Source: Pocillopora verrucosa
Lineage: Eukaryota > Cnidaria > Anthozoa > Scleractinia > Pocilloporidae
Assembly (NCBI RefSeq): GCF_036669915.1
Contig: NC_089323.1
Location: 15,491,340-15,555,339 of the forward strand
DNA: 64,000 nt
Reading direction: 5' to 3'
The translations under genes were made by a program, and so were the position numbers. Positions 23,601 through 60,603 of this stretch are shown in pieces. The first letter of the stretch is position 1; the number at the start of each line of letters is the position of its first letter. Below the pieces are notes generated by a model that did no database searches, had not been told where the DNA came from, and saw nothing but the letters and a program-made list of their open reading frames with translations.

Positions 23601-24691
23601 GGTTTTAAGCTGCGTGATCTTGTGGAAATACCGATAATGCAAAGGAAATAAGAGTTTATTTGGAAGCACTTTGTAAAGATTTCAGTTAGGTAAATGTGGG
23701 CATTCACTCCCATTAAATTTTTTCCATTAGCGAGCAAATAAAACATACTGGGCTTTTGCTGAAGCAATTAAGGCTAGTACCCGATTGGACTGGTTCTTGA
23801 TAATGTAGGTCATTTTAATTCGGAGATCTGATCAAACAAATTCAAAATAGGAAATGCAGATGCCTTCAACATGAGTGGATGATCACTTGGACTTTCCAAG
23901 GGTTTTGATTTTCTCCTGAATGTTCGCTCTTATGATGAATGGTCGATTAGGAAAAGAGTAAGAGCGCTAGACAATGAAAACTCACACCAAGATAATTTGC
24001 GTCGTATATTTCGTCTCATCCATTGTTGTTTTCAAGAATCTCTTCTGTCATTTTTTTTAACCACTTTCTTTTTGAGAGTCTTGGATACAAAAAAAGCATG
24101 AATAATTTAAATATTTAAGATAAGATTAAATATCACACCGGTGAAGTTACGAGTCAAGCTGCCGCAAAACCTTCATCGTTAAAACAGTTTCTGCAGATCG
24201 CAAGGTACAAAATTATTAAGCCTTTGTTACCCAGCGAGATAATCACCACATGTATTTTACAAGGAAAGACGTTATCAGAACGGAACTGAAGAATAGGAGT
24301 TCGTTATTTGGGAGACGACAATGTTTTACCGACTAAAGGTACTGCATTTGCAATTAAGCAATTGTTGTTCAAAACGTGTAACTGATGGCAACCTCTTACC
24401 ACGTTAGAATTGAGGTCACATCGGAGTAAGACACATTCATGTCAGTTTCTGCCCTATTAAACGCAAGCACAAGTTTTTTTCTGACTTAAAGGTATCATCT
24501 CACGAATTATTTTCTTTGAAGTCAATATCTATTGGATTGCACCGACCGGATGAGCTTACCAAGAAGCAGACAATACATCGGTTTTACAGTTGATTTTACA
24601 CAACCATATTAGCACTGGGTATCGTCGTTTTAAGGATTCAATCCACGAAAAAGTTTATACGCTTACTGATCGAAGCTTGAACCGAGGAAAA
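20606..24691. other. Intergenic region between LSM4 and the first GPCR
   Basis: No coding pattern is supported here. It contains the LSM4 3' UTR, a MITE at about 21297-21490, a truncated family A fragment near 21860-21960, and a probable old DNA transposon at about 22110-22490. The latter has cagtcgaacct near its left end and gcttaatac phrases inside. Several open frames of 60-100 codons have no splice context or recognisable pattern. Confidence 0.5.
21297..21490. mobile_element. MITE, related to the one at 39704-39945
   Basis: Starts near gttgccgagcctttgag and ends caaggcttggcaactaag, so its subterminal parts are inverted repeats. The phrase gctaactagatactgg and the terminal aattggcctatt-like sequence recur, in the other orientation, at 39704-39945. 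Confidence 0.6.
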
Positions 24692-25774
24692 ATGTCGAAG
24701 ACATTGCTTCTACCACCAAGAAGTCTCAGCTTAATCGTTTTCGAATCTGTCGCTTCGGTTGCACTCATCATTCTGTCTTTAGTTGGTAATGTTTTAATTC
24801 TAACAGCGCTGTATCGTAACCCGCGGTTAAGAAACACTACAAATAATTACATCGCCGCTCTTGCGGTGACGGACCTTCTCAGTGCTTGTGTCCCAGGAAC
24901 TCTCTTTGCAAGTACACTTATTGCGGGGAGACTGGTCTTTGGAATGCCCTTATGTCGGCTGAGTGGTTTCCTGGTTCACTTTCTGACCTATTTTTCCATG
25001 ACAACGATGACCTTGACAGCAGTCAACCGTTACTTCCGCGTTGTAAGGCCCCAGTTGTACCGGAAGTTGTTCACCAAGACAAGGTCTCGGGGAATTTTAG
25101 TAGTTTTCTGGCTTGTTATCGCCGGCTTCGTTTTTTATCCGACGGCGCTTGGCATGGGAACGTTTACGTTCAACCCTGTGCTGTCATTCTGCGCATACAC
25201 TTTTGCGAGTCAAAGCGCAGAAACGGTATTTACAGTGACAGTGGTCTGCGTTTTTGTCGTCTTTTCCTTGTCGGTAATTTGCGTGTGTTATTATCACGTT
25301 TCCAAAGAGATTCGCAGACACAACGTCGGAATACGTCTCTCCCTCCAAGGTGTTTCCGTCCAAGAAATAAATCTGTCCAAAGTACTCTTCATCGTGGCTT
25401 TCGCGTTTGCTTTATGTTGGATTCCCACGTTTGTGGTCGTCTTGATCATAAGGGTCATTTTGGATGGGGCCCCACACGAATTAGCTGTGGTGATTCCCTT
25501 CTTGATTCAGACTTCAAGCGTTTTGAACCCCCTCATATATGGAGTATTGAGTCCACCCTTCCGTCGAGAGTTCCGCCGTTTGTTTACGCCCAAATGGAGG
25601 GCTCGTTCTGGTGATATAAATTCAAATGCATCCTCGCCAACAGGACAGATAGGTCTGGCTCTGGAGCAGATATCTATCGGTCACCCATGCACGGGGCGTG
25701 ATTCTCGCAGGCAGGGAGATGGTTCAGATGAACTAGCACAGTTTCCAAGCTTAAAGGTTGCCTGGTCGGTATAA
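24692..25774 (+). CDS. Class A GPCR, melatonin-receptor-like, intronless coding region
   Basis: Seven-helix receptor of 360 residues at the plasma membrane; ligand unknown. The first ATG in frame is 24692. TM1 has GNVLILTAL, TM2 LAVTDLLSACVPG, and TM3 begins after the conserved C in MPLCRLSG. The DRY position reads NRY (TAVNRYFRVVRP), as in melatonin-type and many cnidarian receptors. A second Cys in extracellular loop 2 (LSFCAYTF) can form the usual disulfide. TM6 has the switch motif CWIP, and TM7 has NPLIYG followed by the helix-8 residues FRREFRRLF. The N-terminal tail before TM1 is short. No intron is seen. A 242-codon open frame on the same strand in another phase is a by-product of this gene. 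The nearest family call is by motif only; it could equally be an opsin-like or amine-like orphan. Confidence 0.95.
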   Translation: MSKTLLLPPRSLSLIVFESVASVALIILSLVGNVLILTALYRNPRLRNTTNNYIAALAVTDLLSACVPGTLFASTLIAGRLVFGMPLCRLSGFLVHFLTYFSMTTMTLTAVNRYFRVVRPQLYRKLFTKTRSRGILVVFWLVIAGFVFYPTALGMGTFTFNPVLSFCAYTFASQSAETVFTVTVVCVFVVFSLSVICVCYYHVSKEIRRHNVGIRLSLQGVSVQEINLSKVLFIVAFAFALCWIPTFVVVLIIRVILDGAPHELAVVIPFLIQTSSVLNPLIYGVLSPPFRREFRRLFTPKWRARSGDINSNASSPTGQIGLALEQISIGHPCTGRDSRRQGDGSDELAQFPSLKVAWSV

Positions 25775-31861: not shown

Positions 31862-32923
31862 ATGAATTCATCGAGCAACTTCAGTACTACCCCTTTAATC
31901 AACTGCCCTATTACATTTCTCGGTATTTTTCCAGGGGAAAATGTCAAAATGGCTTCAATCATTGCAGCGGCTGTGTTGAATTTCATCTCAAGCTTTATCG
32001 CCACAACAGCCAACTTTTTGGTCATGTGGGCCATTAAAGGGACACCTTCACTGCATACACCATCCGCTGTATTTCTCTTTACCCTGGCATTATCAGACTT
32101 TGTAATTGGTATTTACGTCCAACCCTTATGCGCCGCACTTCTTTTGGCCGCTTTGACTCACAATCTCTCCCTGTTTTGTACGATCAGCGCTATACTGTAC
32201 CCAGTCGGTACTTACCTTTCGTTTTACTCGTTCATGGCAATTGCTGCTGTAACTATTGATCGCTATCTCGCTCTTGTTTTACATCTACGATACGCCGCTA
32301 TCATTACTATAAGCCGCGTGATCAAGTTTAACATCGCAGTTTTTATTGTCTCCTTTCCAGTTGTATTATGTTATTGGTTTTCGAGGATCGACTGGATCAG
32401 AACTACTTCTCTCTTCATTGCAATTTTCTTATTCATTTTTGGCACATTTGCGATTCCCTTCTGTTATCGGCGGATTTTTATGATTTTGCGGCGACATAAA
32501 AAGCAGTTACAGGATCAAAACGACTTAGCAAAGAGGATTCACGGATTTTCAGAGAATGACCTCTCCAAGTACAGGAAATCTGTCCTCGCAATTCTTTATG
32601 TGTTTGGTGTAAAGGTATCAAGTTATATGCCATGTATTATTAGTTTTACGTCAGCGAATTTCTTTGACGAGGGCGTAAGCTGGGAAGTTACTTTTGTCTC
32701 AGCTATAGTGGTGCTGTGGAATTCTACATTCAATCCACTGTTTTATTTTTGGAGAATTACAGAAATTCGACGGTTTGCAATCTCGAAATTGCGACGCATA
32801 TCTAGAGTCAGCAGTCTACCGCACAATGCTGTGCACGTTGAACCAGTCAACGTCACACTGAACGCATCATGTATTTGCACTAAAAGTACACAAGCTATCA
32901 CCAATACTGATACAGAATGGTAA
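31862..32923 (+). CDS. Orphan class A GPCR, cnidarian expanded family, member 1
   Basis: Intact single-exon receptor of 353 residues, ATG at 31862. The N terminus has N-glycosylation sequons (NSSS, NFST). TM1 ends ANFLVMWAIKG, and TM2 holds LALSDFVIGIYVQPL. TM3 ends with a true DRY (TIDRYLALVLHLRY). TM7 has NPLFY followed by WRITEIRRF. Extracellular loop 2 is only a few residues (WFSRIDWIRTT) and has no cysteine, so the usual TM3-loop 2 disulfide is absent. TM6 has no CWxP. A very short, cysteine-free loop 2 is also a feature of melanocortin-type receptors, so a relationship to that broader group is possible. Ligand unknown. Closely similar to the receptor at 35088 and to the pseudogenes at 26100 and 29400. 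Confidence 0.95.
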   Translation: MNSSSNFSTTPLINCPITFLGIFPGENVKMASIIAAAVLNFISSFIATTANFLVMWAIKGTPSLHTPSAVFLFTLALSDFVIGIYVQPLCAALLLAALTHNLSLFCTISAILYPVGTYLSFYSFMAIAAVTIDRYLALVLHLRYAAIITISRVIKFNIAVFIVSFPVVLCYWFSRIDWIRTTSLFIAIFLFIFGTFAIPFCYRRIFMILRRHKKQLQDQNDLAKRIHGFSENDLSKYRKSVLAILYVFGVKVSSYMPCIISFTSANFFDEGVSWEVTFVSAIVVLWNSTFNPLFYFWRITEIRRFAISKLRRISRVSSLPHNAVHVEPVNVTLNASCICTKSTQAITNTDTEW

Positions 32924-35087
32924 GATACAAAGACGTAAACCTCAGGGATTATCCCTCTGAGAAAATTAGAAAAATAAAAGAGGAACAGAGGTAGCGAAAA
33001 CTCTTCTCTTTTTGGTTGAACATCATCTAAACTCTTAGTCACTTTGGGGAAGGTGTAGGATTTTGTAAAGTAGGTAATTAATAACTTTTATCAATAGATG
33101 GTGACACATAAACAGCATTAAACTTATGACCGGATGGCCCTCTATATTAACCCTTTGACTTCTAAGAGTAACTAGCATCTAATTTCTCCTTACAAAATCA
33201 CCCCTGTATCAAACATGAAGGTCACGAGAATAAATAAAATGATAACTAACTTAAGAAGCTCTTGATTGTTCAACAAATTCTCCTTTTCAGCACCTTGGAA
33301 ATGTTAAGAAAACAGTATGGAGAATATACATTTTGACATTAGGGTGTAAAGAGCTAAAAGATCCAATAAAAGAGTTCAACACTATGCAAAAAAAAATTTT
33401 TCTTTTCGATAGCAGAACTAAAAGAAAAGGCGGTGGTTGATTTACTTGTTTCGACACTGCGATCCCACTGGTTCCCCATGATATTCTCCTTGAATTGTTA
33501 TATTTGTTTTTTATTTACTTTGGGCATCATGAACGAAAAGTGATTAAAAAAGATGACAGACGTTCAGTGTAATTTTAGGGATTAACTTTTTCTTTGAAAA
33601 GTACTTTTGCAAGTGTAGAGATATTGCGTTATCCTATTCTGCACGTGTCTCGGCACGTGTCCTCTGATCACCAGTTTGATTTCAGCCAATCATCTACCTT
33701 AGCATAACAAGTAATTATGTAATAACATGGTTCATCACCGCGTGTCCGCAGCACTCAGACCTCCTTGGATATTCCTTGTTTTGGTCGATTAAAAATGTTG
33801 GTCTTTGACTCGCCTGTTGATTCGTATTGATCTCGTTACAGCAAGTAAAACAACGAAAACCTTTGGTGATTATACTTTCGTATCTGTTGTATCAATTACG
33901 TTTTAATTTGTTCAGGCGAGTTCCATGCAATCCTTTTGTACAAAACATCGGTCGAACAGCAACAAAACCTAATCAATTTAAAGTTTTTTATCCGGTCCTG
34001 GGGTCAAAAAGGAATTTTAATTAAAACCGCACTATGAAGCAAGTTCAATGTAAGCTGGGAAAACTGACCCCACAGACTGAACTATTGTACTAAAAAGTAT
34101 TAGGTAAGGTGAACTTTTTGCTTAAAGAAAGTGATAGTTTTTGTTGCGATGAAAATAACCATTTTAAAAAGGTGGATCTGAGTTTTGCAGGTTAGTCAAT
34201 TGCAGGGAAAAAGGAATCTTAACTCAGTACTGAGGTACGTGAGTGACATTTTACTAAATGTTTTAGCACATATTTGTAGGCTGTTTCACTGCTCGGCTCT
34301 CCTGGCAGTAGGAATTTAAGTTCTCAAGTCTGCTTGAATGTAAGAGGGATTTTATGAAAACTTCTGATTCTCTCTCGATTTCACCAAATCGGCAACAGGC
34401 AAACGTCGTTTTAGAGACGAAGGTCTGCAAAGAAACTGCAAAAAAAATACCAAATTATAGATCCAAACGCAAAATAAAGTATTGTCAATACTGACTCAGT
34501 TTTTTAAAACTAAAACTAAAATGACAACTTGTTTTTTTAAAAACATTTTTCATTTTGAACAAGTGTTGTTGCGGTATGGTTTGGACCCCACACAAACGCT
34601 TTATTAAGGCAATTACAAAGACAACTGCAAGTAAAATATTTTCAAAAAAAATTACATAAAATAGGAGAGGACAAGGTAGTTTAATGTCCTGGCTACTTCC
34701 AAAATTTTCTCAATGATTTCCCTACATTTCTCTGTCATAAATTAAGAGAGTTGAACGCACGGTTTGAAAATTGAATTTAAAAAATTCTTTGAGGACTAGC
34801 ACTGCATATTCAAACCACCACGTATTAAAACCACTTACTCTGGAGCTTAATTGTCTTATGGATTCTTAAACAAGAAACACTTCTTTACGGATAGGTTTGT
34901 CTTTCCTTAGTACAGTGCTTGGTGGATAATGAGTGTGTTGAAAATATGAGAAGTTACATGTTGACTGCATGGTCACTAGTTGATGTTTAAGGATTGACTT
35001 CTGCGCTGACCGTGATTGACTCTTTCTTTCGTTTCTTTTTCTCAGAAATCATCCTTTGATAGGCATCTTCTCTTACGAGTGGGAGAT
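32924..35087. other. Spacer between the two intact orphan GPCR genes
   Basis: Holds a family A MITE at 33148-33357. A 65-codon open frame at 33827-34024 shows no recognised family. A good splice acceptor (ttctttttctcag, ending 35045) just before the next receptor suggests that receptor has an untranslated first exon somewhere in this spacer. Confidence 0.45.
33148..33357. mobile_element. MITE family A between the GPCR genes
   Basis: Full-length copy, forward orientation: attaaccctttgacttctaa at left, gacattagggtgtaaagagc at right, with gagtaactagcatctaattt and ggagaatataca inside. Confidence 0.8.
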
Positions 35088-36098
35088 ATGGAGGAACGAA
35101 CAAACAACTTAACATTTCCTACTAATTTTAGCACTTTCACTGAGACCAATAACTGCCTAGTTGAATTTGATGGAAGTACTTCAATGGAAAATCTTCCTGT
35201 GTCTATGTTACATAACGTTGTCAACATTCTATCAATCCCCGTTGCAACAATGGCGAACTTTTTTGTTCTGTGGGCCATAAAAGAGAGACCTTCTTTGCAC
35301 ACACCATCTTCGGTGTTCCTGTTTATACTAGCGCTATCTGATTTTGCAATTGGTGTCTTCGTTCAACCGTTGGTTGTCATTCGATCCTTTGGTGCGGCAG
35401 CCCATAATTATCGCTTGTCCTGCATATCCAACGTCTTAATTTTCGCCGTGGGTACCGCCCTTGCTTCCTTGTCCTTCGCGTGCATAACTGAAATAAGTTT
35501 CGATCGATACCTGGCACTAGTACTACATCTACGATACAATTCAATCATCACTGTCAGACGTGTGATCAAGTACAAAATCATAGCATCTGTTGCAATCTTT
35601 CCAATAACAATATACTTCTGGTTCTCGAAGGAGGATTGGTTCAAGAGGACAGTTCTTACGGTTGCGATCACACTGGCCGCCATCTGCGTCACACTAATTC
35701 CTATCTCGTATTACAAAATTTTCATGATATTGCGACGGCACAAAAGGCAGATACAGAACCAAAATAACGTAGCTACATGCACGCAAGGATTTTCTGACAC
35801 TGACCTTTCTAAGTACAGAAAATCTGTACTTGCAATTTTATACGTTCTTGGGGCAGTCGCCTTAAGTTATATTCCATTAGGAGTATGTACTTGGATGCAA
35901 ATAGTGTTTCAGACGAAGATAAATCAGTTGGTGACTAGTTCTGCGGGACTATTGGTTTTATTAAACTCCTCGATTAATCCTCTTGTCTACTGCTGGAGGA
36001 TGACAGAAATTCGAAGGTTTGTTGTCATGAAATTACGTAGCATATTAGGCGTTGATCGTGGAAGACAAGTCCGATCAGTTGGAATGATAACACGTTAA
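35088..36098 (+). CDS. Orphan class A GPCR, cnidarian expanded family, member 2
   Basis: Intact receptor of 336 residues from the ATG at 35088; the upstream acceptor at 35045 favours this start. The N-terminal tail has sequons NLT and NFS. TM1 has MANFFVLWAIKE, TM2 LALSDFAIGVFVQPL, and TM3 ends in EISFDRYLALVLHLRY. Loop 2 is again minimal and cysteine-free (WFSKEDWFKRT). A basic loop 3 (ILRRHKRQIQNQN) and SKYRKSVLAILYVLG lead into TM6, and TM7 has NSSINPLVYCWRMTEIRRF. The C-terminal tail is short, and its stop codon TAA is made by the first bases of a family A MITE (36095-36305). The original tail may therefore have been cut short. Ligand unknown; plasma membrane. Confidence 0.95.
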   Translation: MEERTNNLTFPTNFSTFTETNNCLVEFDGSTSMENLPVSMLHNVVNILSIPVATMANFFVLWAIKERPSLHTPSSVFLFILALSDFAIGVFVQPLVVIRSFGAAAHNYRLSCISNVLIFAVGTALASLSFACITEISFDRYLALVLHLRYNSIITVRRVIKYKIIASVAIFPITIYFWFSKEDWFKRTVLTVAITLAAICVTLIPISYYKIFMILRRHKRQIQNQNNVATCTQGFSDTDLSKYRKSVLAILYVLGAVALSYIPLGVCTWMQIVFQTKINQLVTSSAGLLVLLNSSINPLVYCWRMTEIRRFVVMKLRSILGVDRGRQVRSVGMITR

Positions 36099-59473: not shown

Positions 59474-60209
59474 GTGAACTTTAGTTTAACAAGCAAACTC
59501 GTTGCATAAAATTACGCTAGAAAATTATTCTGATCGGATGTCTGACGGTATGGACTTGACATCGATAAAACGTTTTGAACCCATTTTAGACCAAAGTTAA
59601 GCCTTTATTATGTGAGGCGTAGGATCAGAAACAATTAAAAACTAATCAGTAATAATTATGATGATCCATTTGCCGCTAATTAAAATCAGACTGATAACAA
59701 TGAAGGGATGAAAAGTACATCTCCAATTAAGGGCAATGTTTTGTTGTTTTCCTGGTCATTTCCGGTTCGCTACGAAACTAATTACAAACAAATCAGACTT
59801 ATTATCGAGGCTTGGAACTGTATTTAGTATCGTTTATTATTCTGTTTTCATGGAAACAGAGACCACAATTAATCAGTTACCGGCTGTAACCAAATTCTCG
59901 ACCATTTTAACACAATTTCGTGCTCGCCTGAATAATGTTAATTTCACAGGATACCAATGTATGAACGGTAGAGAATTTTTGTCCATTTTTACATTTTTAC
60001 ATACTCTAGGGCTAGTTAATATTTATATAAATAATTTTTAATATTTGTGTACGCATAACTCACATTTTATCTTGTTTTGTATTTTTAGCTTGTCGAGCGT
60101 TTTTAACATGAACCTCTGGCTCGGAAGATTGTGCGAACACTTCCCACGTCTATGACATTAAATAAACTATTCTATTCTACCACTTCTCGTGCTAAATTCT
60201 TTGTGTTCA

Positions 60210-60215
60210 TATATA

Positions 60216-60264
<49 letters not shown>

Positions 60265-60266
60265 TA
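60210..60266. repeat. (TA)n microsatellite, left
   Basis: Nearly pure TA tract directly adjoining the hammerhead-containing segment. Confidence 0.95.
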
Positions 60267-60504
60267 ACTAACTGCAGACAGTACTGTTTCGGCCTTCTGG
60301 GCCTCATCAGTGCAGTGCTGACGCTAGGATGGAGGTAAGGCTATATAGCCACCCCAAGTGATCTCACACGTGTGGTATCATCTAAGCCATGCCAGAGTGC
60401 TCAAACTAGATAAACTAGTGAGCATGCATAATGCTAGCAGCAATGACTCATCCTAGTAGAGTGCTCAATTTGGACATGAAAGCAAAGCTTTGTATGCCAA
60501 AGAG
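60267..60504 (-). mobile_element. Small hammerhead-bearing element between TA tracts
   Basis: A 238-bp segment bounded on both sides by TA microsatellites, with one complete hammerhead on the - strand (60272-60315). It also has duplicated phrases (agagtgctcaa at about 60394 and 60459) and a hairpin ctagataaactag. No coding capacity. Size and content fit a retrozyme-like or Penelope-derived non-autonomous retroelement; the family is not identified. Confidence 0.6.
60272..60315 (-). ncRNA. Hammerhead ribozyme, all core elements intact
   Basis: Read on the - strand from 60315: stem I 5' strand ctgca; core ctgatga; stem II ggcc, loop cagaa, ggcc; core gaaa; stem III acag-ta-ctgt; cleavage-site C at 60277 (triplet gtc); stem I 3' strand tgcag, fully complementary to ctgca. 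Every base required by the hammerhead consensus (CUGANGA, GAAA, NUH cleavage site) is present, and all three stems form with Watson-Crick pairs. Stem III is also a 10-base palindrome (acagtactgt), so dimers could form. Predicted cleavage is between 60277 and 60276. Such motifs are known in animal Penelope-like elements and retrozymes. Confidence 0.9.
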
Positions 60505-60505
60505 C

Positions 60506-60579
<74 letters not shown>

Positions 60580-60603
60580 GATATATATATATATATATAT
60601 ATA
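60505..60603. repeat. (TA)n microsatellite, right
   Basis: About 100 bp of TA with a few interruptions (ca, ga). The apparent open frame of Tyr-Ile repeats here is an artefact. Confidence 0.95.

Follow-up and report, generated by a model that had tools for sequence, protein, structure and literature searches.

Some LINEs are target-specific, R2 being one example and Tx1L, which lies in the Tx1D transposon of Xenopus, another. Hammerhead ribozymes are carried by mobile sequences of a different kind, the retrozymes. Those of the coral Acropora millepora are described, in the available portions of PMC7229834, as non-coding units of 220–245 bp with a type I hammerhead that has a short paired stem III; they occur in tandem copies, are low in GC (<50% according to the text, <45% according to Figure 1C) and form circular RNA. 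The same portions treat the enzyme that moves animal retrozymes as an open question, with LINEs or Penelope-like elements, the latter with minimal type I hammerheads of their own (PMC7761336), named as candidates.

The hammerhead described here belongs to a unit of 243 bp, hereafter U, which has a GC content of 0.47 and resembles the A. millepora retrozymes in having a type I hammerhead whose short stem III is paired, and in its tandem copies. It is unlike the coral retrozymes, as the available text of PMC7229834 describes them, in targeting (TA)n with an invariant 3′ end, in occurring mostly as single copies and in carrying LINE inserts in its ribozyme; circular RNA, demonstrated for the former, is a putative form of U. 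With the Penelope-like elements, as described in the corresponding part of PMC7761336, U has the type I hammerhead in common, but it encodes nothing and its stem III is paired. U is best classed as an animal non-LTR retrozyme.

Two results can be read directly from the letters. Adjacent to its 3′ end U bears a type I hammerhead, and it is present as dispersed single and some tandem copies in (TA)n, and an L1-like LINE has been inserted repeatedly at the stem III palindrome of this hammerhead, with duplication of GTACTG. Like R2 and Tx1L, this LINE has repeatedly entered a single position in a repeated sequence, its 5′ junction being constant, and like Tx1L in Tx1D it is nested in another mobile element. 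Unlike both, its target is the palindromic catalytic stem of a self-cleaving ribozyme, whose fold the insertion is predicted to be able to rebuild. To our knowledge, no LINE target is known that is a catalytic stem of a ribozyme, and in the openly licensed literature, covered mostly at the level of titles and the beginnings of abstracts, we found no description of a hammerhead interrupted by a LINE. If the account given below is true, a LINE harboured in a ribozyme, at a palindromic target that may spare it, would be the ribozyme counterpart of the homing introns.

The hammerhead motif and its unit

The window, by which we mean the whole stretch of 64,000 nucleotides analysed, contains on its minus strand a type I hammerhead ribozyme motif at 60271–60316, with stems I, II and III of 6, 4 and 3 bp. 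On that strand its first half is made up of ACTGCA (60316–60311), CTGATGA (60310–60304) and GGCC-CAGAA-GGCC (60303–60291), and its second half of GAA (60290–60288), ACA-GTAC-TGT (60287–60278), C (60277) and, beyond the predicted self-cleavage site, TGCAGT (60276–60271). The earlier note had claimed a complete hammerhead with three paired stems and a cut between 60277 and 60276; our reading of the motif bears out the former, and the position of the predicted site within the motif leads to the same cut. Its stem II stands as described, but stem I has 6 bp rather than 5, which extends the motif to the limits given above, and stem III, indeed paired, is redrawn from 4 bp to 3 bp capped by the palindromic tetraloop GTAC. 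The GTACTG of stem III (60279–60284, minus strand), which in other copies is the LINE insertion site and the duplicated target, is empty in the window.

The bare core pattern is not significant in itself, being found once in the window against 0.68 expected by chance. When paired stems were demanded as well, one match (6/4/3 bp) was obtained in the window; 2000 simulated first-order Markov windows gave 14 looser matches, one of them reaching 13 bp or more over all stems, and no match with stems of at least 5/4/3 bp. The core is present in 99 exact copies in the host assembly (353 Mb, 52 contigs), against none for the reversed control. A chance match in ordinary AT-rich DNA, in favour of which the missing Rfam gathering match and the predicted misfolding of the intact motif can be cited, is on both these counts extremely improbable, as had been supposed from the completeness of the match. 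We conclude that the hammerhead motif in the window is real and beyond chance.

The covariance search proposed in the earlier note did return a match, albeit sub-threshold. None of the Rfam hammerhead models reached its gathering score; the best, HH9, gave 23.9 bits where 52 are needed, with an E-value of 0.0018 over 701 bases and of 0.17 over the whole window. Folded in isolation, the motif is not predicted to adopt the hammerhead as its best structure, the hammerhead fold of the intact ribozyme lying 3.6 kcal/mol above the optimum, and activity may therefore depend on assistance, for example by a second copy; hammerhead motifs with a weak stem III are reported to work as dimers (in the available parts of PMC7229834 and PMC7761336). 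Unusual stability was sought in the RNA of the region and not found, the circle being matched by 26 of 300 shuffles. The pattern was also run against viral contigs and prokaryote genomes and matched nothing there, as would be expected of an animal element.

The hammerhead lies near the 3′ end of U, of which the window holds the body of a single copy on the minus strand, from GCTC at 60505 to GTTAG at 60268 (60268–60505). This segment, previously called gene-less, is merely overlapped by open reading frames of 20–63 aa and contains no long coding frame. A looser core pattern has 114 matches in the host assembly, and full-length matches to U are 95–100% identical to the window copy (40 of 230 candidates scored). 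Most of the arrays read consist of a single U, and a minority hold tandem copies, with a period of 243 bp and the joint TGCA-GTTAGATATA-GCTC. The 99 exact cores dispose of the notion that the genome might hold no other copies, and the dispersed copies with TA borders, together with the tandem 243-bp units, agree with the short non-autonomous element that had been suggested and are like the coral retrozymes described in part in PMC7229834. U combines a type I hammerhead with paired stems and a dispersed and tandem unit within about 170–400 bp, as retrozymes do, and its 3-bp stem III departs from the minimal Penelope-type hammerhead, which has no helix III pairs.

Among 38 full copies the hammerhead contains 10 minority cells in 1672, compared with 151 in 7181 for the rest of the unit (p 6e-6), each change in it being confined to one copy. 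Counted as variable sites, the hammerhead and the rest do not differ (9/44 versus 45/189, p 0.70), and another stretch of U of the same length is quieter than the hammerhead in these copies. This is weak evidence for selection on the hammerhead.

Two alike loci, C1:5736581–5737074 and C1:7193400–7193903, each hold oppositely oriented pieces of U at a distance of about 246 bp from one another, which may reflect duplication of one locus or an inverted insertion. A second small hammerhead-like family, with CTGATGAGCGCTTAGGCGCGAAACTCAGAGTC or near variants, was noted at C2:216306, C3:6153216, C3:8023687 and C7:18743392, and at loci L067, L075, L090 and L095.

TA-repeat targets and a candidate engine

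As the earlier note had observed, U is bounded by TA tracts in the window; that at 60209–60266, on the 3′ side of the unit, is taken as the insertion target, and that at 60506–60603 lies on its 5′ side. For the family, 82 insertion 3′ ends were defined from 91 loci, with 20 further large regions set aside apart from a partial reading of one. A TA run of at least 8 within 40 bp is present at the 3′ end in 80 of the 82, at the 5′ end in 63 and at both in 61, as against 12 of 4100 control 40-mers taken from distant upstream flanks, so that other genome copies do have the TA borders that the note had proposed to look for. The two 3′-side misses are a look-alike pair on C3 within the 3′ region of the GIY-YIG element discussed below. 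The 5′-side misses number 19, six of them copies with a LINE upstream; the run is absent in 13 of the 76 U copies that have no adjoining LINE.

The 3′ end of U is fixed and its 5′ end variable. Inserts are as short as 58 bp and range over one unit up to two units or more, with rearranged or neighbouring copies as the longest. Most of the 3′ termini (67/82) read GTTAGTTA, ten read GTTATATA and five read otherwise; the alternative that priming takes place at the ATATA inside the tandem joint, which would yield GTTAGATATATA ends, was rejected in view of the predominant terminus. Microhomology at the 5′ junction, assessed in 45 copies with a clean TA tract, amounts to a mean of 2.7 shared leading bases, where simulation gives 0.78 (the observed value being reached in 0 of 5000 runs); if each of the 16 starts is counted once, the mean is 2.0 versus 0.78 (1 of 5000). 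Target-site duplications, which in animal non-LTR retrozymes exceed 4 bp where they occur, are for U indistinguishable inside (TA)n. The fixed 3′ end, the variable microhomologous 5′ end and the copies of one to two units would fit target-primed reverse transcription of an oligomeric or circular RNA.

Another repeat family, starting with GGAAGTCTGCAAGTCGA, also abuts TA tracts, for example at L095:117 (+), L055:1561 (+), L082:1580 (−) and L074:936 (+), and some of its copies have long inverted repeats around GAAGAGTGAAGCGATTCACGAAACAGG.

A search of the host assembly for GIY-YIG domains gave at least 16 matches (150 of 476 candidates scored). Five of these lie in or beside places of one repeat, the 3′ region of which has 27 matches (from 26 candidates, all scored). 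An exact 25-mer at the 3′ end of this element is present in 26 copies, and in 25 of them the sequence runs into TATATA within four bases. A fragment of the element contains a Pfam GIY-YIG domain (1.7e-7); Pfam recognised no reverse transcriptase (RT) in it, nor any domain in a 162-aa frame upstream, the look of which we take to be RT-like. With the GIY-YIG domain found and an RT unrecognised by Pfam, the element is probably, but only probably, Penelope-like. Its 3′ region also contains CTGAGGAAGGCAAATGCCGAAACGCGTCGGGTC, a loose fit to the hammerhead core that could be a minimal Penelope-type hammerhead (L010:1377 (+), L050:2769 (−), L075:1282 (−)).

Either Penelope-like elements or LINEs have been proposed as engines of animal retrozymes (PMC7229834, available portions). 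The TA target common to U and the GIY-YIG element favours the latter as the engine, and this element may move U; the LINE, by comparison, looks like a third party and not the engine. Since element and retrozyme have one unusual target in common, this genome offers a concrete test of what drives a retrozyme. At one locus (L088) the 3′ end of the GIY-YIG element runs straight into a 104-nt U tail that includes the hammerhead and TA; this joint may be the product of a template switch or of a later deletion.

This chimera and the common target could also be cited for the view that U is merely a decayed end piece of a Penelope-like element and not an element of its own. The terminus of U, however, differs from that of the GIY-YIG element, five other 3′ ends of which were read and have this different terminus and no U, and U forms tandems of a unit of its own and keeps the core intact in about 100 copies; we consider the end-piece explanation very improbable.

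A LINE in the stem III palindrome

At six loci the 3′ end of a LINE with its poly(A) lies directly upstream of a U unit, and at three loci a LINE 5′ end directly follows part of a U. Pieces of the copy on C8 contain the Pfam domains Exo_endo_phos, RVT_1 and zf-RVT, and its first ORF has a zinc knuckle; an APE endonuclease, an L1-like RT, zf-RVT and a zinc knuckle in ORF1 are together those of an APE-type LINE. In comparisons with the PDB, the RT matches human LINE-1 ORF2p with an E-value of about 1e-47, and R2 with 1e-18. U-LINE-U copies measure 5.5 kb from unit to unit, and the idea that they are a Penelope-like element with pseudo-LTRs was ruled out by this domain content. The LINE 3′ region is present in 10 copies, all at least 99% alike (10/10 candidates), and the 5′ region in 12 copies, 95–100% alike (12/12 candidates). 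According to the search table, three copies, unlike others, retain a 1175-codon open frame that spans the RT. No 5′-truncated copy was seen, two of the 5′ ends lying in runs of N.

The junctions define a single target, GAAACA-GTACTG-TCTGCAG, of which the 6-bp GTACTG is duplicated upon insertion. Eleven of the 12 LINE 5′ ends follow U at GAAACAGTACTG, exactly in the stem III palindrome of the hammerhead, and the twelfth, in a head-to-tail LINE-LINE joint, follows the poly(A) of the other LINE and GTACTG. At the 3′ side, seven of 10 ends continue into GTACTGTCTGCAG (with one letter changed in two of them) and a whole U, one into GTACTGTCTGCAGTTA and TA, one into GTACTG and the next LINE, and one (L096) into unrelated DNA. 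With the single exception of L096, the insertion site is the same in independent copies of U.

Comparison of the U and LINE parts indicates how this arrangement probably arose. The U parts that flank one LINE are 97.4–100% identical (119-bp region, six loci). Between LINE loci, the same 119 bp have a mean identity of 94.6% for 5′ parts (55 pairs) and 95.0% for 3′ parts (21 pairs), and solo copies a mean of 95.2% (64 copies). The LINE 3′ parts are 99.2–99.7% identical between loci (1250 bp, six loci, 15 pairs), whereas in the same 15 pairs the adjacent U units average only 95.9% (range 94.0–100). LINE bodies that are alike within divergent host units suggest that each LINE entered a pre-existing U array; repeated insertion at one site, not co-inheritance, is the simplest reading, and this looks like site-specific homing of a LINE into a ribozyme.

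An alternative is that U-LINE-U moves as one composite, its LINE protein copying from the U 3′ end in TA, with the LINE as autonomous partner and solo U as short derivatives. Such a composite would account for the association of 11/12 LINE 5′ ends and 8/10 3′ ends with U, for the location of LINE-holding arrays in TA tracts like those of solo arrays, and for a preference for internal sites: seven of the eight resolved LINE insertions are in internal hammerheads of tandems, although the 76 solo arrays offer seven internal sites (one in a rearranged array) against 76 terminal ones (p 3e-6). The variant comparison speaks against it, in that the LINE parts are more alike between loci than the U units beside them and the U parts match within a locus and not with other LINE loci; moreover, GTACTG alone separates the two LINEs of the head-to-tail joint. 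We therefore regard the composite as unlikely and prefer repeated insertion. The preference for internal hammerheads is not predicted by simple homing; internal and terminal sites differ in the sequence beyond GTTAG, and either this is recognised by the endonuclease too or tandems are otherwise exposed.

Relatives of the LINE, with 50–54% RT identity, are spaced about 7.57 kb apart at C41:15930, 23499 and 31067, and others cluster on C5 at 15–17 Mb; the even spacing and the cluster suggest another target-specific or tandem family.

Predicted fate of the split ribozyme, and other features of the window

Because GTAC is a palindrome and the target is duplicated, the ACAGUAC on the 5′ side of an inserted LINE can pair with the GUACUGU on its 3′ side. 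In a calculation that leaves the 5-kb loop outside, the hammerhead is the minimum-energy cofold of the split halves (−21.7 kcal/mol), and insertion is predicted to lengthen stem III from 3 to 7 bp with the halves folding as a hammerhead. A predicted duplex between the 5′ half of the ribozyme and the initial 30 nt of the LINE has −26.4 kcal/mol, a value equalled by 3 of 5000 shuffles and by none of 378 other LINE 30-mers.

We thus envisage that oligomeric or circular transcripts of U would cut themselves and that a nick in a TA tract would serve to start their reverse transcription, the engine probably being the GIY-YIG (Penelope-like) element, whose copies likewise end in such tracts. Insertion of the LINE would split the ribozyme but leave it with a stem III of 7 bp that the LINE closes; with a palindromic target, cleavage by the split ribozyme may persist, immediately behind the LINE poly(A), and the insertion need not kill the host element. 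We have good confidence in this account as a whole, in which U is a 243-nt non-LTR retrozyme in (TA)n with a probable GIY-YIG engine, and the LINE inserts repeatedly in stem III of a ribozyme that possibly survives. A scheme of three tiers is a much more tentative proposal: a Penelope-like, TA-directed RT; a ribozyme unit riding on it; and a LINE homing into the palindromic stem III of that unit, where the rebuilt and stronger split hammerhead would trim LINE RNA just behind the poly(A) and the first 30 nt of the LINE would act as an off switch.

Elsewhere in the window, a tRNA-Ser(GCT)-like gene at 57452–57524 (+) has several non-standard pairs in the Rfam alignment and is possibly decayed or the head of a SINE. 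Three long single-frame genes for rhodopsin-type receptors, which mark the host as an animal, are located at 24590–25774, 31862–32923 and 35016–36098 (+).
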